Positions 12,270 through 18,996 of a stretch of DNA of 63,541 nt are shown piece by piece. A program made the translations under genes and the position numbers. The notes beneath the pieces are model-generated. The model made no database searches and was not told where the DNA came from. It saw only the letters and a program-made list of their open reading frames with translations. How positions within the stretch are numbered: the stretch's first letter is position 1; each line of letters begins with the position of its first letter. This DNA comes from Lachnospiraceae bacterium (GTDB lineage: Bacteria > Bacillota > Clostridia > Lachnospirales > Lachnospiraceae): NCBI GenBank assembly GCA_017548765.1, contig JAFYZH010000094.1, forward strand, positions 1 through 63,541. Reading direction: 5' to 3'.

Positions 12270-14702
12270 TTATTTCACGGTCAATGTTGCTTCGCTCGAC
12301 GGCAACGGATTTCCGTCGCCATCCGTTACGATGCAGCGGAACTGCCAGCCGTTTAAGCCTGCGAGCGCCGTTACCGACAGGGTCGCCGTCTTCGCTCCCG
12401 GCTGGCCGGAATTCGACCATGCAGAGGAAGTATTCTTTCTCGACTGCCACTGATACTTCAGGGTAGCCTTGCCATAAGCAGCGACCGTAAATTTCGCCGT
12501 GGATCCAGCTGCGGCCGTCGTATTCTTCGGCTGTGTAAGGATCGACAGTTTGGTGAACAGGGTCGCGGCATTCGAGCCCCAGCTGTTATTGTTGGCGTCA
12601 GTCACGACGCAGCGGAACTGCCAGCCGTTTAAGCCTGCGATCGAAGTCACTGTGAGTGTCGCCGTCTTCGCTCCCGGCATGCCGGAGTTCGACCATGCGC
12701 TCGACGCGTTCTTACGCGACTGCCACTGATACTTCAGCGGTGCCTTACCATTCGCAGCGATCGTGAACTTTACATCTGTTCCAGGCGCACCATAGGTGCT
12801 CTTCGGCTGTGTGGTGATCTTCGGTACTACGGTCAATGTCGCAGCATTCGATCCCCAGCTCATATTGTTGCCGTCGGTTACGACGCAGCGGAACTGCCAG
12901 CCGTTCAGACCTGCAAGCGAAGTCACTTTGAGGGTCGCCGTCTTCGCTCCCGGCTGGCCGGAATTCGACCATGCAGAGGAAGCATTCTTACGCGACTGCC
13001 ACTGATAGGAAAGCGGTGCCTTGCCGTTTGCAGCTATGGTAAACTCAGCGATATCTCCCACTGGTGTCGTCGCATTCTTCGGCTGCGTCGTGATCTTAGG
13101 TACGACCTTCAAGGTGGCAGGATCGGAGGTTTTTGTCCTTCCATTTGCCTGCGTTACGATACAGCGGAACTGCCAGTTGTGCAGACCTGCGAGCGAAGTC
13201 ACTTGAAGTGTTGCCGTCTTCGCTCCCGGCTGACCGGAATTCGACCACGTGCTCGAGGCATCCTTGCGCGACTGCCACTGGTACTCAAGTGTTCCGGTAC
13301 CCACTGCCTCTACGGAAAACTGAGCAACATCCCCCACAGGAACCGTTATAGTCTCCGGCTGCTTTGTGATCTGCGGAGCGACATACGTGATCTGCGGAGC
13401 AGACAGTTTCACAGGCTCGCTGGCATAGTCGGTCTCGTGAATATCGTTGATCTCCTCAGCAACCAGATACACGTAGTAACTCTTCCCCCATTCGCTTACA
13501 TCAAACTCCGAAGGAAGCGTGAAGCTCGTGGTACCGAGTGTCGGCACGGTATCACCGGTAACAGTATTGCTCTTATAGTATAAGATCGAAGCTTCGTTCG
13601 TATTTCCCGGCGTGTATTCCTTATCCAGGATAAAGAACGAGAAGTAATTGGGAACCAGTTCGGAAGACAGTTTATAGTGTGCCTGTACTGAAAGCGATCC
13701 CTCCGAATTCATTCTTCCGCTGACGGACGGGGTCCTGCCGGTAGCAAACAAAATAAGCTCGATATCGGTGTCGATCAGCGTCAGTTTATACTCCGCTCCG
13801 ACGCCGATATCGTTATTCGCTTTAACCTGAGAAGAAAAGAGGATGGAAGAACGATCCACATTAAACGCAGGGCTTACACCCGTCTGGGATATGGCGCCGC
13901 CATACCAAAAGCCTCCACCGGACGTAATACATCCGATACAATGTCCTTCTCCGTCTTCATCCAAATAAGCTGAGCGCAACCACCACCATGCATTTTCACC
14001 CTGATATTGCTTAAGGCGTTGCTGCATGGAGCGTTCTTTTGTCGTGTCGTATCCGTAACAGTATCGGGACGTGTCTGCCTCTTCCGCATCCAGCAAGAAT
14101 ATCTTATCTCCGTCGATCCCCACAAACTGCCCAAACATTTCCTGCGTCCAATGTCCTTCTTTCAGGTCATGCGCCTCGGCATAGCTGTAGATGATGGCAT
14201 TGCGTTCAGTAGCCGTAAAGCCATTCGGCTTCGTCAGAAAATCGCTTCCGTTCAGACCCTTTTGCAGAGCACTGCCCTCCCACGTGTTCACATTCGAACC
14301 GCTGTAGTTTGGATTAAACTGCGCCTTATACAAAATACTGTCACAGTCGAGAAACATCGTGTTTTCGCCGTATTTCGAAGTATTCGTACTCAGCACACGA
14401 TACTTGACCGGTGTTCCATCGTATTTTCCATACCAGACGAAACTTCCATACCAGTCGTGCGCCACATGACCCGCATAACGCGGATCTGAGATGCCGGTCG
14501 TGGAGAGTCCGAAAACCGTCTTATTCCAGTCTTCATCATCCGGCAACTGGATTCCTTCCGTAGCCAGCCAGCTGCCCATCTGATTCCGGTTGGTATCCGC
14601 ACTCACCTTCTGTGCAAACCCGGCCACAGGCAGCAGCGTAACAATCAGGATCGCCGACAACAGCATCGCCAGCAGGTGCTTCGTTACTCGTTGTTTCTTC
14701 AT
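12270..14702 (-). CDS. secreted surface protein: DUF6273 head plus four Ig-like repeats
   Basis: Exported protein of 810 residues. The start at 14702 follows AAAGGAG by 9 bases and opens a signal peptide (MKKQRVTKHLLAMLLSAIL) ending near KVSA; the frame is open 26 codons further upstream without a ribosome site. Residues about 40-265 form a DUF6273-type domain (FVWYGKYDGTPVKYRVL, WWWLRSAYL, GVSPAFNVD). A linker follows, then four tandem Ig-like modules from about 460 to the end, each with QPxxxTVPVGD, YQWQSRK, NSGQPGAKT and GWQFRC. The protein stops right after the last module with no LPXTG or SLH anchor. It follows the sigma-LRR operon and is preceded by a terminator/promoter element nearly identical to the one before the response-regulator gene. 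Confidence 0.92.
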   Translation of the reverse strand: MKKQRVTKHLLAMLLSAILIVTLLPVAGFAQKVSADTNRNQMGSWLATEGIQLPDDEDWNKTVFGLSTTGISDPRYAGHVAHDWYGSFVWYGKYDGTPVKYRVLSTNTSKYGENTMFLDCDSILYKAQFNPNYSGSNVNTWEGSALQKGLNGSDFLTKPNGFTATERNAIIYSYAEAHDLKEGHWTQEMFGQFVGIDGDKIFLLDAEEADTSRYCYGYDTTKERSMQQRLKQYQGENAWWWLRSAYLDEDGEGHCIGCITSGGGFWYGGAISQTGVSPAFNVDRSSILFSSQVKANNDIGVGAEYKLTLIDTDIELILFATGRTPSVSGRMNSEGSLSVQAHYKLSSELVPNYFSFFILDKEYTPGNTNEASILYYKSNTVTGDTVPTLGTTSFTLPSEFDVSEWGKSYYVYLVAEEINDIHETDYASEPVKLSAPQITYVAPQITKQPETITVPVGDVAQFSVEAVGTGTLEYQWQSRKDASSTWSNSGQPGAKTATLQVTSLAGLHNWQFRCIVTQANGRTKTSDPATLKVVPKITTQPKNATTPVGDIAEFTIAANGKAPLSYQWQSRKNASSAWSNSGQPGAKTATLKVTSLAGLNGWQFRCVVTDGNNMSWGSNAATLTVVPKITTQPKSTYGAPGTDVKFTIAANGKAPLKYQWQSRKNASSAWSNSGMPGAKTATLTVTSIAGLNGWQFRCVVTDANNNSWGSNAATLFTKLSILTQPKNTTAAAGSTAKFTVAAYGKATLKYQWQSRKNTSSAWSNSGQPGAKTATLSVTALAGLNGWQFRCIVTDGDGNPLPSSEATLTVK

Positions 14703-14758
14703 CTGTTTTTCTCCTTTGCTATCTCCTTTGTTATTTCGTGTATACACCTTGTGAAGAG

Positions 14759-14845
14759 AAAAAAAACTCCCTGCCCACATTTATACATTCTAAGTATAAA
14801 TGCAGGCAGAGCGTTTGTATATCACCTATTTGCACCATTTTCAGC
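14759..14845 (-). promoter_or_regulatory. combined terminator/promoter element (copy A) between the sigma-LRR operon and the Ig-repeat gene
   Basis: On the minus strand: a conserved block AAAATGGTGCAAATAGGTGA continuing TATACAAA (14813-14840), then 16 bases, then a -10-like TATACT (14793-14798). All of this overlaps the left arm of a long hairpin (arms about 14767-14786 and 14794-14813) that ends in eight T residues (14759-14766). The block, the spacing and the -10 are repeated at 54711-54790. The hairpin should stop readthrough from the LRR operon, while a transcript started from TATACT begins at or after the loop and lacks the left arm. Confidence 0.6.
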
Positions 14846-14925: not shown

Positions 14926-16629
14926 CTAGTTTCCCTCCATATACAGATGCGCCAGATCTGCGCAACTTCTTAAGTCCAGACTCGTTAAGGAATTATTCTC
15001 ACAGCTAAGCGAGGTCAATTTCGTGTTTTGGCTCAGGTCCAGTTCCAACAATTCATTATCATCGCAGCCGAGCACCTCCAGCAACGGGTTCTCCGTCATA
15101 TTCAGTTCATGCAAATAGTTATCGGAACAGTCCGCCCACTTTAAAACGGCATTCTTACTGAAGTCCAACTCGGACAAATTATTTCCCGCGCAGCTGATGG
15201 TCTCCAAAGCGGTATTCTTACTCAGATCCAGTCTATTAAGCTCGTTGTTGTAGCAGTAGAGCGTTTTCAACGCCTTATTCGGAGTCACATCCATATTTGA
15301 CAACTGATTGTTGTAGCAGTAGAGCGTCTCTAAAACTTCATTTTTCCGGAACTTCAATTCCCAGATCTGATTATTACTGCAGTTGAGTTCCCTCAGCGCT
15401 TTATTCGAACGGACATCCAGTTCGGTCAGAAGGTTATTTGCGCAATTCAAGTGCTCCAGCGCTTTATTCGAGCCCACCTCCAGACTCGTCAGCTGATTTC
15501 CGGAACAATCCAAAAACTCCAGAGCTTTATTATCACCTACATCCAGCACTTTCAAATTCAGGCCTATACACGTAAGGGACTCCAAATTCGGAAAATATCC
15601 GACACCCGTCAAGGTATCGATCTGAATCGGTTCATCCAATATTTCCCAGTAGTTGCTGTTCATGTATTCCTGGTGCGGCTCCTTTTGTATGATCTCGATC
15701 TTATATACTTCGTCCCGTTCTTCTGTGCTGAGTTTACCATCTTCGTCCAGATCGATATTCTTCGCTACATATTCGCGGAATGCCTTATCCGGAAAATGCT
15801 CTTCGTCGATCGCGATCTCGCGGTTCATGAACCATTTACCCGCGACGAAGAGTCCTGCAACCGCCAAAACTCCCGCGACGATACCCACGATCGTACGGTA
15901 TCTCCACGGGTGCGACGCCTTACCTCCGGCCTCTTCCTCGTCTTCAAAATCCCCCGCGGTCCCGCTCTCGCCCTTCGCTACCGTCGCGACACGCGTTTCC
16001 GCCTCCGAAATATAGGCGTCGTCGATCTCTCCGATGCGTTTCAACAAAAACACTTTACCATCCACGGGCCAGACCGTCTTCGCTTCCCGGAACGTTTCCT
16101 TCAGGGCTTCGCGAATGCCGGCCAGTTCGGTCTGAACATCATCCGAAGAAAGACCGCTCCGGTCTGCGATGGTCCGGATCGGCGTTCCGAACCAGTATCG
16201 CATCATAAAGAGACGGCGTTTCGAAACGGGAATGAAAGCCAGAAAATCGTTGAGCGTTTCGACGACTCCGTCATCCTCGTCACGTTTATCCGCCCCGAGG
16301 TACCCGGTTTCTACGCAATCATCCAGTTCACTTATGATCGTTTCGATCTCTGCTGCGTTCGCAACTTTCGGTTCCTCTTCCGGATACTGAAAAGCGATCT
16401 CACGTGTCAGCCTTCCCATGAACGACTTTAAACTCTTCGTTCCCACCGGAGGACAGGATGTCCAACTCTTATGCAAGGCCTCCCGAAAGCACTCTTTTGC
16501 AGCAGATTCTTCGCCCAGTATCGTATAGGCGATCGTTTTGCAATACATTTCATATTTCGCAGTCGTTTCCATCAGCGCACGTTCATCGAAGCGCTCAAAC
16601 AACTCCAAGATCTGTTTGTCATTTAACAT
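14926..16629 (-). CDS. membrane-tethered ECF-sigma-like protein with extracytoplasmic EF-hand and leucine-rich repeats
   Basis: A 567-residue fusion. Residues 1-190 match a common clostridial ECF sigma family: region 2 (MLNDKQILELFERFDERAL, then KYEMYCKTIAYTILG) and region 4 (FIPVSKRRLFMMRYWFGTPI, then ADRSGLSSDDVQTELAGIRE). An acidic linker and one membrane helix (about 241-265, TIVGIVAGVLAVAGLFVAG) follow. The external part has an FPDKAFREYV segment, an EF-hand-like loop DLDEDGKLSTEE and about ten 21-residue LRRs with a conserved Cys (LxxLxCxxNxLxxLDVS), like the cysteine-ladder LRRs of Listeria InlJ. The recognition helix is acidic and the region 2 helices are diverged, so promoter binding may be weak or lost. 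It is the last gene of a three-gene LRR operon. The start ATG has only a weak AGAGG site. Confidence 0.85.
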   Translation of the reverse strand: MLNDKQILELFERFDERALMETTAKYEMYCKTIAYTILGEESAAKECFREALHKSWTSCPPVGTKSLKSFMGRLTREIAFQYPEEEPKVANAAEIETIISELDDCVETGYLGADKRDEDDGVVETLNDFLAFIPVSKRRLFMMRYWFGTPIRTIADRSGLSSDDVQTELAGIREALKETFREAKTVWPVDGKVFLLKRIGEIDDAYISEAETRVATVAKGESGTAGDFEDEEEAGGKASHPWRYRTIVGIVAGVLAVAGLFVAGKWFMNREIAIDEEHFPDKAFREYVAKNIDLDEDGKLSTEERDEVYKIEIIQKEPHQEYMNSNYWEILDEPIQIDTLTGVGYFPNLESLTCIGLNLKVLDVGDNKALEFLDCSGNQLTSLEVGSNKALEHLNCANNLLTELDVRSNKALRELNCSNNQIWELKFRKNEVLETLYCYNNQLSNMDVTPNKALKTLYCYNNELNRLDLSKNTALETISCAGNNLSELDFSKNAVLKWADCSDNYLHELNMTENPLLEVLGCDDNELLELDLSQNTKLTSLSCENNSLTSLDLRSCADLAHLYMEGN

Positions 16630-16661: not shown

Positions 16662-17924
16662 TCAGTACACGATATGATACTCCGGCAATTCCTGTTCTTC
16701 GGGAACATAATCCACGTGGATATCATTTTCTTCGGCTCCGATCACAGAAACGCCGAGATCCACCTCCAGCCATCTGCAACAAAGGAGGTTCGTCACATCC
16801 AGTTCGAGTAGTTCATTATTCGAACACTCTACTATATCCAGAAAATGATTTTGGCTCAGATCCAACTTTTTCAACCGGTTTCCGTCACATTTCAAAGTAT
16901 TAAGCTTACGGTTTTCACTCAGATCCAATTCCGATAAAATATTATCACTGCATTTCAGATCCCAAAGCTGCGTATTATGACGCAGATCCAGTTTTTCCAG
17001 ATACATATTTTCACAGTAAAGCTTTACCAGATTCGTATTCCAACTCAGATCCAACTCTCGGATCAGGTTAGTGGAACAATCCAATGAAAGTAAAACACAA
17101 CTTCTGCGAAGATCCAAATAGTCTATATCATTATAACGACAGTAAAGCTCCTGGAGGGCGGCTGAACTTCCTGTGTCCAGACTCTTCAACTGATTACTGG
17201 AGCAGTCCAAGTACCTTAATCTCGTGTTATGCTTCACAGTCAGTGCATTCAACCGGTTGTTATGGCAGTCGAATTCCTCCAGTTTAAGACATCCGCTTTT
17301 ATCCAGACTCTCCAGAATATTATTGGAACAATTAAGCCACTTCAGGGCATCACATCCGCTCACATCCAGGCTGCTCAGACCATTATGCGAACAACCTAAA
17401 TACTCCAGATTGAAACACCCTTTTACATTCAGGTCGGTCAAGTTGTTATCATCGCAGAAAAGTCTCCTGAGATTTCTGCACCCACTCACATCCAAGTTCG
17501 TCAGTAGATTATTATGGCATGACAACTCTTCCAGCGCGTCACACCCGTTCACGCGCAATTCCCTAAGATAACTACCCGAACAATTGAAAACCCTAAGTGC
17601 CTTGCATCCACTCACATCCAGGCTTTGGAAATCACTCCCGCTAACACGCATCTCCTCCAGGTTCGGAAAGAGTTCACACCCCCTAAGACTCTGCACTCCG
17701 CTCGACTCCAACACGATGCTCTTTATCGTCAGGGTCTCGCTCTCTTCCAGAATGTGATTTTTATTCAAGTCGAATTCGTTGTGAAGGTATTCCTGAAACG
17801 CTTCGTCCGGAAAATACTCATACGTAATGGGGATATCCGACGAAGCCGCTGCCCTGTCACTGCACCCGGCCGGTCCCGACGCCAAAAGGAGCGCCATACC
17901 GATCATAAACATTCCTTTCCTCAT
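16662..17924 (-). CDS. LRR lipoprotein with cysteine-ladder leucine-rich repeats
   Basis: Surface lipoprotein of 420 residues. The signal peptide MRKGMFMIGMALLLASG ends in a PAGC lipobox. A Ca-binding-like loop FDLNKNHILEESE comes next, then about fifteen LRRs of 21 residues with the pattern LxxLxCxxNxLxxLDVSGC, in which the conserved Cys would stack into a ladder as in internalin J. The start at 17924 overlaps the end of the upstream LRR gene by 11 bases. A GGAGGAG site inside that gene's end lies about 13 bases before it, somewhat far, so the start is moderately sure. Probably a ligand-binding or adhesive surface protein; a role as partner of the sigma-LRR protein encoded 33 bases downstream is inferred from the operon. 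Confidence 0.87.
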   Translation of the reverse strand: MRKGMFMIGMALLLASGPAGCSDRAAASSDIPITYEYFPDEAFQEYLHNEFDLNKNHILEESETLTIKSIVLESSGVQSLRGCELFPNLEEMRVSGSDFQSLDVSGCKALRVFNCSGSYLRELRVNGCDALEELSCHNNLLTNLDVSGCRNLRRLFCDDNNLTDLNVKGCFNLEYLGCSHNGLSSLDVSGCDALKWLNCSNNILESLDKSGCLKLEEFDCHNNRLNALTVKHNTRLRYLDCSSNQLKSLDTGSSAALQELYCRYNDIDYLDLRRSCVLLSLDCSTNLIRELDLSWNTNLVKLYCENMYLEKLDLRHNTQLWDLKCSDNILSELDLSENRKLNTLKCDGNRLKKLDLSQNHFLDIVECSNNELLELDVTNLLCCRWLEVDLGVSVIGAEENDIHVDYVPEEQELPEYHIVY

Positions 17925-17934
17925 ATCTTTTCGT

Positions 17935-18996
17935 TTACTCCTCCTGCGGCTCGTATCCGCGGATATCCCGCACATTCATCCGGTCCGTATCATAGAACAG
18001 ACGAATATCGGCAGGACAAGAAGTCACATCCAAACTCGTCAGTTCATTTTCATAACAGTAGATCTCACGCAAATCGGTACATCCGTCCACTTTCAAACTC
18101 GTCAACTCGTTGTATGAACAATCGAGCGAATACAGTTTTGTAAGGCCGGACGCATCCAGCCTCTTCATCTTATTATTTCGGGCGCCGATCATTACTAATT
18201 CCGAACACCCGTCTATATTCATACTCGTCAACTTATTCGTATGGCAGGAGAGAGATTCCAGTTTAGTAAACCCGGACACATCTAAACTCGTCAACAAGTT
18301 TTCCGAACAATGGATCGTGGTCAGTTTCGTACACCCGGTCAGTTTCAGACTCGTCAACTCGTTGTATGAACAATCGAGGTCGGATAAGCGGGAGCAGCCA
18401 CTGACGTCCAGGCTCGTCAGTTGGTTTTCACCGCAAATCAGCGTAAGCAGCACCTTATTGTGCTTCAGACCCAAAACCTCCAACGCATTGCCCTCGCAAT
18501 CCAGTTCCCGCAGTTTCGGATTATGACTTACATCCAAGCCGGATAATTCATTATAGTAGCACAATAAGATCTGCAGGTTCGGATTATGACTTACGTCCAA
18601 TGCAGTGATTTTATTAGACCAACAACAAAGTTCCCGAAGTTCGATGTTTTTTGTCACATCCAGGCTGGTAAGATCATTATCATAACACGCCAAAGATCTC
18701 AGTTTCGGAAAGTATTCGATACCCCGCAGATCTTTGATCTTCATACTTGCAACGTCGCACTCTCTCACCTTCCTGCGCTCATTCCCGTTCAGCACTCCGT
18801 CCTCATCCAAGTCGTAATAAGTCGAAACGTATATCCGAAACACCTTATCCGGAAAATGCTCTTCGTCGATAGTGATCGCGGCTAATTTCCCCTCGCCGCC
18901 TCGCAAAATAACGTACACAAAAACCGCCGCCGCGATCAAAACCACGGCCGCTACGGACAGGATGAGTATACGTTTTTTCTTTCCGAGTTTTTTCAT
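17935..18996 (-). CDS. membrane-anchored LRR protein with EF-hand-like loop
   Basis: A 353-residue protein with a basic N-terminus (MKKLGKKKR) and one membrane segment (ILILSVAAVVLIAAAVFVYV), probably an uncleaved anchor with the rest outside. After it comes the same module as in the sigma-LRR protein: DEEHFPDKVFRIYV, then a loop DLDEDGVLNGNE, then about eleven 21-residue LRRs with LxCxxNxLTSLDVS repeats. First gene of the LRR operon, 50 bases downstream of a good sigma-A promoter (TTGCAT, 17 bases, TATAAT). TAAGGA precedes the ATG. The shared membrane-proximal domain suggests the three LRR proteins respond to related ligands or interact. Confidence 0.87.
   Translation of the reverse strand: MKKLGKKKRILILSVAAVVLIAAAVFVYVILRGGEGKLAAITIDEEHFPDKVFRIYVSTYYDLDEDGVLNGNERRKVRECDVASMKIKDLRGIEYFPKLRSLACYDNDLTSLDVTKNIELRELCCWSNKITALDVSHNPNLQILLCYYNELSGLDVSHNPKLRELDCEGNALEVLGLKHNKVLLTLICGENQLTSLDVSGCSRLSDLDCSYNELTSLKLTGCTKLTTIHCSENLLTSLDVSGFTKLESLSCHTNKLTSMNIDGCSELVMIGARNNKMKRLDASGLTKLYSLDCSYNELTSLKVDGCTDLREIYCYENELTSLDVTSCPADIRLFYDTDRMNVRDIRGYEPQEE

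Follow-up and report, generated by a model that had tools for sequence, protein, structure and literature searches.

We have shown, by comparing orthologues from three species, that one gene of a Lachnospiraceae bacterium (contig JAFYZH010000094.1, analysed as a stretch of 63,541 nucleotides, the window) naturally joins, in one frame, an ECF sigma domain to a single-pass membrane partner. At the level of sequence, the sigma part has lost invariant DNA-facing residues after the fusion and has retained its fold, the motif of the partner and selection. The chances are about even that the product is a DNA-binding-defective pseudo-sigma mounted on a transmembrane LRR receptor and working through protein binding; by analogy, it is perhaps a PhyR-like mimic. 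The initial annotation had proposed a one-piece transcription switch, with a sigma scaffold reused for protein binding as its alternative. It is this alternative that fits better, the promoter-reading switch being weakened by the disappearance of the residues that match the promoter contacts of sigmaH.

The fused gene and its two-gene relatives

The combination of a sigma fold and an external EF-hand/LRR domain in a single chain, seen in the initial annotation, was borne out: both are encoded by one minus-strand frame of 567 residues, in which a single membrane helix is followed by an EF-hand-type loop and by ten Cys-type LRRs of 21 residues each (Table 1). The acidic linker described between sigma part and membrane is present, but the same piece also holds a motif of partner genes. 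At E<=1, Pfam gave no zinc-finger, receiver-domain or anti-sigma family for the protein, and the four Cys on the N-terminal side of the membrane helix (30, 47, 59, 105) form no CxxC. The LRR domain was modelled with pLDDT block means of 79-92 and a last block of 62 (AF2, 3-row alignment). The order LRR-membrane protein, LRR lipoprotein-like protein and fusion is identical in the window and in the loci of two orthologues (L064, L065). Terminator-like sites number 8 in the region (shuffles: mean 3.9, sd 2.0) and promoter-like sites 9, which is near chance (mean 6.3, sd 2.8). Elsewhere in the window, the large product of the gene after the fusion (12270-14780) combines DUF6273 with four Ig-like stretches, and many large frames at 36275-63282 also look secreted by eye; a megablast search against plasmids gave no match.

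Table 1. Features of the fused gene and of its surroundings (window positions)
Feature	Positions	Strand	Basis
Fused gene, 567 aa: putative pseudo-sigma, putative anti-sigma motif, TM, EF-hand, LRR	14926..16629	-	full-length fused orthologues
Sigma region 2-like domain, residues 1-95; conserved residues gone, K90 and R91 among them	16345..16629	-	
Sigma region 4-like domain, residues 121-184; R171 gone, recognition helix acidic	16078..16269	-	
Putative anti-sigma motif of the partner family, FLLKRIGEIDDAYISEAE, within residues 190-213	15991..16062	-	
Acidic linker, about residues 222-241	15907..15966	-	sequence
Single transmembrane helix, about residues 245-268	15826..15897	-	
FPDKAFREYV cap and EF-hand-type calcium loop, about residues 275-311	15697..15807	-	by eye; Pfam EF-hand_5 E=0.22
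External LRR domain, residues 345-563, ten Cys at 21-residue spacing	14941..15597	-	
LRR protein, lipobox-like start by eye; upstream gene of conserved three-gene block	16662..17975	-	
N-terminally membrane-anchored LRR protein (anchor by eye); first gene of block	17935..18996	-	
Terminator-like hairpin, 18 pairs then T run, 3' of fused gene	14769..14811	-	

The same sigma domain occurs 11 further times in the window's genome (E below 1e-18; best match to the window's sigma part, E 4e-38), each time in a frame of its own, and at all 11 the next gene starts on the sigma stop codon (ATGA). The partners encoded there share one build: an N-terminal motif of the form LxxxIGxIDDxYIxEA, looser in some, then a membrane segment and an external part. 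Over the genus, family and order, the partner overlaps the sigma stop codon (offset -1) at 46 of 52 unfused loci. Once distinct partners are pooled, 64 of 80 do so and 77 of 80 have exactly one TM-like segment, the automatic pick being wrong at some loci (L038, L084) and the partner at L029/L092 being a stand-alone serpin gene without the motif. Among 78 distinct partners, position 207 is I, V or L in 75, A210 is found in 66 and E209 in 56; all three fused proteins retain I199, G200, I202, D203, Y/F206, I207, E209, A210 and E211. The window protein bears the motif at residues 195-211, directly after the sigma part, and continues in the layout of the partner family with a single membrane helix and an external domain; it is thus a sigma factor fused with its own partner.

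From their pairing and topology and from their RsiV and RsgI relatives, we infer that the partners are putative anti-sigma factors, the N-terminal IGxIDDxYIxEA motif being the probable sigma-holding piece. The partner at L069 resembles the RsiV model over residues 36-283 (E=1.9e-50; 171.8 bits, below the cut-off of 250) and also matches Pfam DUF3298; since the RsiV match begins at residue 36, it does not cover the motif. The partner at L022 contains RsgI_M, the RsgI central domain, above cut-off (E=2.6e-18). In others, the external part consists of LRRs with or without EF-hand, of DUF6273 or of a serpin, and for 11 of the 28 proteins scanned, Pfam recognised nothing at the thresholds applied. 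In the family, such sigma genes appear to be numerous, 121 of 299 sampled genomes having a region 4 match (E<=0.001); at the loci examined, they are mostly accompanied by a motif-bearing membrane partner whose external part is of LRR, DUF6273, serpin, RsiV, RsgI or unrecognised type. In the window's own genome (contigs G000:C26, C8, C75, C64, C22), the eleven unfused sigma/partner pairs, of which several stand in tandem, represent an expansion of ECF signalling pairs at the level of the genus; eight of the eleven partners have LRRs, two DUF6273 and one no recognised domain.

Homologues with the same domain order were looked for and found, full length, in two further species of the genus (G005, locus L064, 67% identical; G001, locus L065, 58%), with junction codons that align without gaps in all three genes. 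A frame error, which the initial annotation had named as a possible refutation, is therefore excluded. The draft state of the genome (106 contigs) and the separation of the two genes in relatives would suit a sequencing or assembly error, but an in-frame junction with aligned codons in three species makes the probability of such an error negligible; the orthologues already refute it. The fusion is intact in three of the six genus genomes (drafts 88-100% complete) and was not found in full in G002, G003 and G004; it thus seems dispensable. A wider sigma profile gave 49 match rows in the genus genomes, of which 3 are fused and two, adjoining on one contig, look like one split gene. In G002, a copy (L017, G002:C22) has kept the LRR half without the sigma half, beside another surface-protein-like gene, and could be a remnant or an assembly fault.

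In a tree of 83 sigma domains (quick search, SH-aLRT support, without bootstrap), the fused trio forms one clade (SH-aLRT 100) nested in a clade of 34 unfused genus sequences (SH-aLRT 100). The median end branch has 0.25 changes per site; the stem of the trio has 1.59. One more sigma encoded in the window's genome (L013) falls outside the genus clade. By this tree, the fusion arose once, inside the genus. Outside it, no in-frame fusion was seen among the matches listed for 299 family genomes or for 392 order genomes (E<=1e-7; the latter sample overlaps the family set); one whose region 4 had diverged strongly would escape these surveys. A few matches span the junction only via stop codons, and the one inspected (L069) consists of two adjacent genes. 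As a separate observation, over its last 55 residues the window protein is identical to the G001 protein (window 14929-15093, L065 12254-12418), the aligned remainder being 54% identical, and the window copy stops 20 residues sooner. This suggests that the 3' end was exchanged recently.

Fold, residues and selection in the sigma part

The profile search proposed for the N-terminal part gave a divided answer. With TIGR02937 (cut-off 42.9 bits), the window protein scores 34.7 and the L065 protein 33.4, below the curated cut-off, but the L064 orthologue exceeds it with 43.9. The kinship of the window protein with its paralogues is clear (best E 4e-38). The window's sigma part alone matched no solved structure at E<=10; the family profile matched 15, SigW best, and a sigma2/sigma4 fold was recognised. 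With 3 alignment rows, AF2 gave sigma2 a pLDDT under 50 and sigma4 45-75; with 8 rows, both were folded. In the 8-row model, from whose alignment partner N-termini were left out because they misaligned, no readable clasp of the motif on the sigma part appeared, the motif region having a pLDDT of about 60.

Residues were compared with those of 80 unfused sigmas, which are related and not independent: 52 unfused sequences, to which 28 of the 35 sigma matches in L067-L101 were added, those under 180 aa or repeats being omitted (from the 55-row set, L001-L008 and L041 were omitted as repeats). At 34 positions, one residue is shared by at least 90% of the 80; all three fused proteins keep 21 of these, and 4 are partly lost. 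The nine lost in all three are R14, G27, N49, P64, I74, K90, R91, R171 and L180; At position 49, which we take to match a core-polymerase contact, N has been replaced by R. All 80 unfused sigmas have R91 and R171, for which the fused proteins have N/N/N and G/A/E, respectively; R173 is kept. N77, present in 69/80, is replaced by E/D/A. The annotation of the region 4 recognition helix as acidic and diverged holds: the net charge of residues 160-176 is -3, -2 and -2 in the fused proteins versus +1 to +5 in the 80 unfused, and residues 76-95 have likewise passed from +1 to +8 to -3, -2 and -4. The fused sigma part does not have the presumed basic promoter-contact residues that are conserved in its relatives and, by the standard of PhyR, is a degenerate sigma-like domain.

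In sigmaH of Mycobacterium tuberculosis, R186 is described as contacting base G-34 and N88 as helping to melt DNA (PMC6411747). With the SigW alignment as a bridge, sigmaH itself being outside the alignment, R171 probably corresponds to R186 and N77 to N88. A working ECF sigma, M. tuberculosis SigL, has Y aligned with R171, so that the loss of R171 alone does not disqualify a sigma factor. Two of the unfused rows, both divergent, differ at 11 and 9 of these 34 positions, as many as the fused proteins (10-12); the number of losses is therefore not decisive in itself, and the kind of residues lost is.

For the three fused pairs, dN/dS (NG86) is 0.26, 0.30 and 0.27 in the sigma part and 0.26, 0.29 and 0.22 in the LRR part. 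Unfused reciprocal-best sigma pairs have a median of 0.094 (range 0.03-0.19; 29 pairs, after exclusion of 12 of 41 with dS outside 0.3-2), so that the fused sigma part evolves under a constraint weaker by a factor of about three. With a dN/dS of about 0.27, the fused sigma part is nevertheless, on these codon comparisons, under purifying selection and not simply decaying.

Competing readings and a possible mechanism

These values bear on the possibility that selection acts on the LRR receptor half and that the fused sigma half is decaying baggage. The looser constraint (0.26-0.30 versus a median of 0.094), the LRR half without a sigma half in G002 and the failure to find the full fusion in G002, G003 and G004 all agree with such a relic. 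However, dN/dS is about as low in the sigma part as in the LRR part (0.22-0.29), neither stop nor frameshift occurs in three species, and core residues and motif were kept while DNA-facing residues went. Slow decay would explain the looser constraint but not the pattern of kept residues, whereas a scaffold kept for protein contacts and freed from DNA contacts would explain both; we consider a relic unlikely. A membrane-held sigma in one piece, in which an LRR signal would lead to cleavage and the freed sigma would transcribe promoters of altered sequence, on the model proposed for ECF52 and demonstrated for IutY, appears improbable as well. Its architecture is that of described fusions (PMC8999054, PMC5826349), fold and purifying selection are retained, and one of the lost residues is non-essential, to judge from SigL; against this, residues invariant in 80/80 unfused sigmas are gone, both DNA-facing stretches have turned from basic to acidic in three species, and the changes in the sigma part were concentrated in one burst (stem 1.59). 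Very unlikely, finally, is an internal start near codon 193 that would yield a separate anti-sigma/LRR protein beside the long form: in-frame GTG and TTG (window) or ATG (G005) codons lie just before the motif, but no ribosome-binding site was seen there by eye.

If the protein is instead a pseudo-sigma acting through protein binding, its sigma domain would no longer read promoters and would stay at the membrane, in the grip of the anti-sigma motif of the same chain, until a ligand or the calcium state at the EF-hand/LRR domain shifts this clasp. The freed pseudo-sigma might then capture the anti-sigma motifs of sister pairs and release the real sigmas, as PhyR does with NepR, or the freed motif might capture a sister sigma; either way, the output would be an exchange of partners with sister pairs and not DNA binding. 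G005 has only three unfused sigmas, at the census threshold, and thus offers fewer candidate targets. We put forward only tentatively, by analogy, this promoter-blind and self-clasped transmembrane sigma mimic that would, on sensing, swap partners with sister pairs and so connect several regulons to one receptor. If true, it would represent the logic of PhyR without a kinase in a Gram-positive lineage, made by fusing a sigma to its own inhibitor, and a case of a sigma/anti-sigma pair that fused and then changed job. As the unfused state is preserved many times in the same genomes, the step from transcription factor to scaffold is testable residue by residue.

Relation to known systems

The initial annotation knew of no described family with this layout, a statement that does not stand: PMC8999054 describes fusions of sigma factors with membrane anti-sigma parts in ECF48, ECF52, ECF53, some ECF36 and IutY (ECF243, Pseudomonas putida), and the layout thus belongs to a known kind. 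As in the window protein, the descriptions of ECF52 (SCO4117), ECF48 and ECF53 place a sigma domain, an anti-sigma part and a membrane helix in one chain, and Streptomyces SCO4117 also ends beyond the membrane in an external, carbohydrate-binding domain (PMC5826349). Those families are, as described, actinobacterial with a zinc-finger anti-sigma, and SCO4117, which also contains a proline-rich region, is interpreted as a working sigma factor. In contrast, the window protein has no Pfam zinc finger, another anti-sigma motif and an LRR sensor, and has lost DNA-contact residues. IutY is likewise a sigma fused to its own membrane anti-sigma factor, but is reported to serve iron-starvation cell-surface signalling, to be processed by Prc and RseP, and to have an active truncated sigma part (PMC8999054). 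The same source lists ECF262 of Ruminococcus albus with a regulatory extension.

The ECF-like domain of PhyR, a protein of the alphaproteobacterial general stress response, captures an anti-sigma factor and is described as degenerate in its promoter and polymerase regions (PMC8103513), and in such degeneracy it resembles the fused protein; Foldseek matched PhyR structures weakly (3t0y, E 0.15; 9by5, E 0.35). PhyR is, however, a response regulator with a receiver domain, a family missing from the fused protein (Pfam E<=1), and the passages on PhyR in PMC8103513 make no mention of a membrane helix or a fused anti-sigma motif. Sigma/anti-sigma/membrane fusions (ECF48/52/53, IutY) and sigma mimicry (PhyR) are thus each already known separately; the novelty lies in the clade, in an anti-sigma of the motif type, in an LRR/EF-hand sensor and in the disappearance of DNA-facing residues. 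Among papers on ECF/anti-sigma systems, including those of Lachnospiraceae, none describing this fusion was found by title.

Membrane anti-sigma factors with external sensors, resembling the putative ones found here, are also described in RsiV/sigmaV and in RsgI/sigmaI of Clostridium thermocellum, a species with nine RsgI factors (PMC12203970); these are separate proteins, unlike the window protein, a fusion with an LRR sensor. Some unfused partners are of a further type, on which no paper was found by title: in two related genomes, putative anti-sigma partners have an external serpin (E=2e-55, L068:1698-3182, the same pair as L025; E=4e-60, L030:2055-3524), and in a third genome, a stand-alone serpin gene follows the sigma gene (8e-75, L092:1720-3003). 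A serpin, that is, a protease inhibitor, may possibly act there as the sensor of transmembrane signalling.
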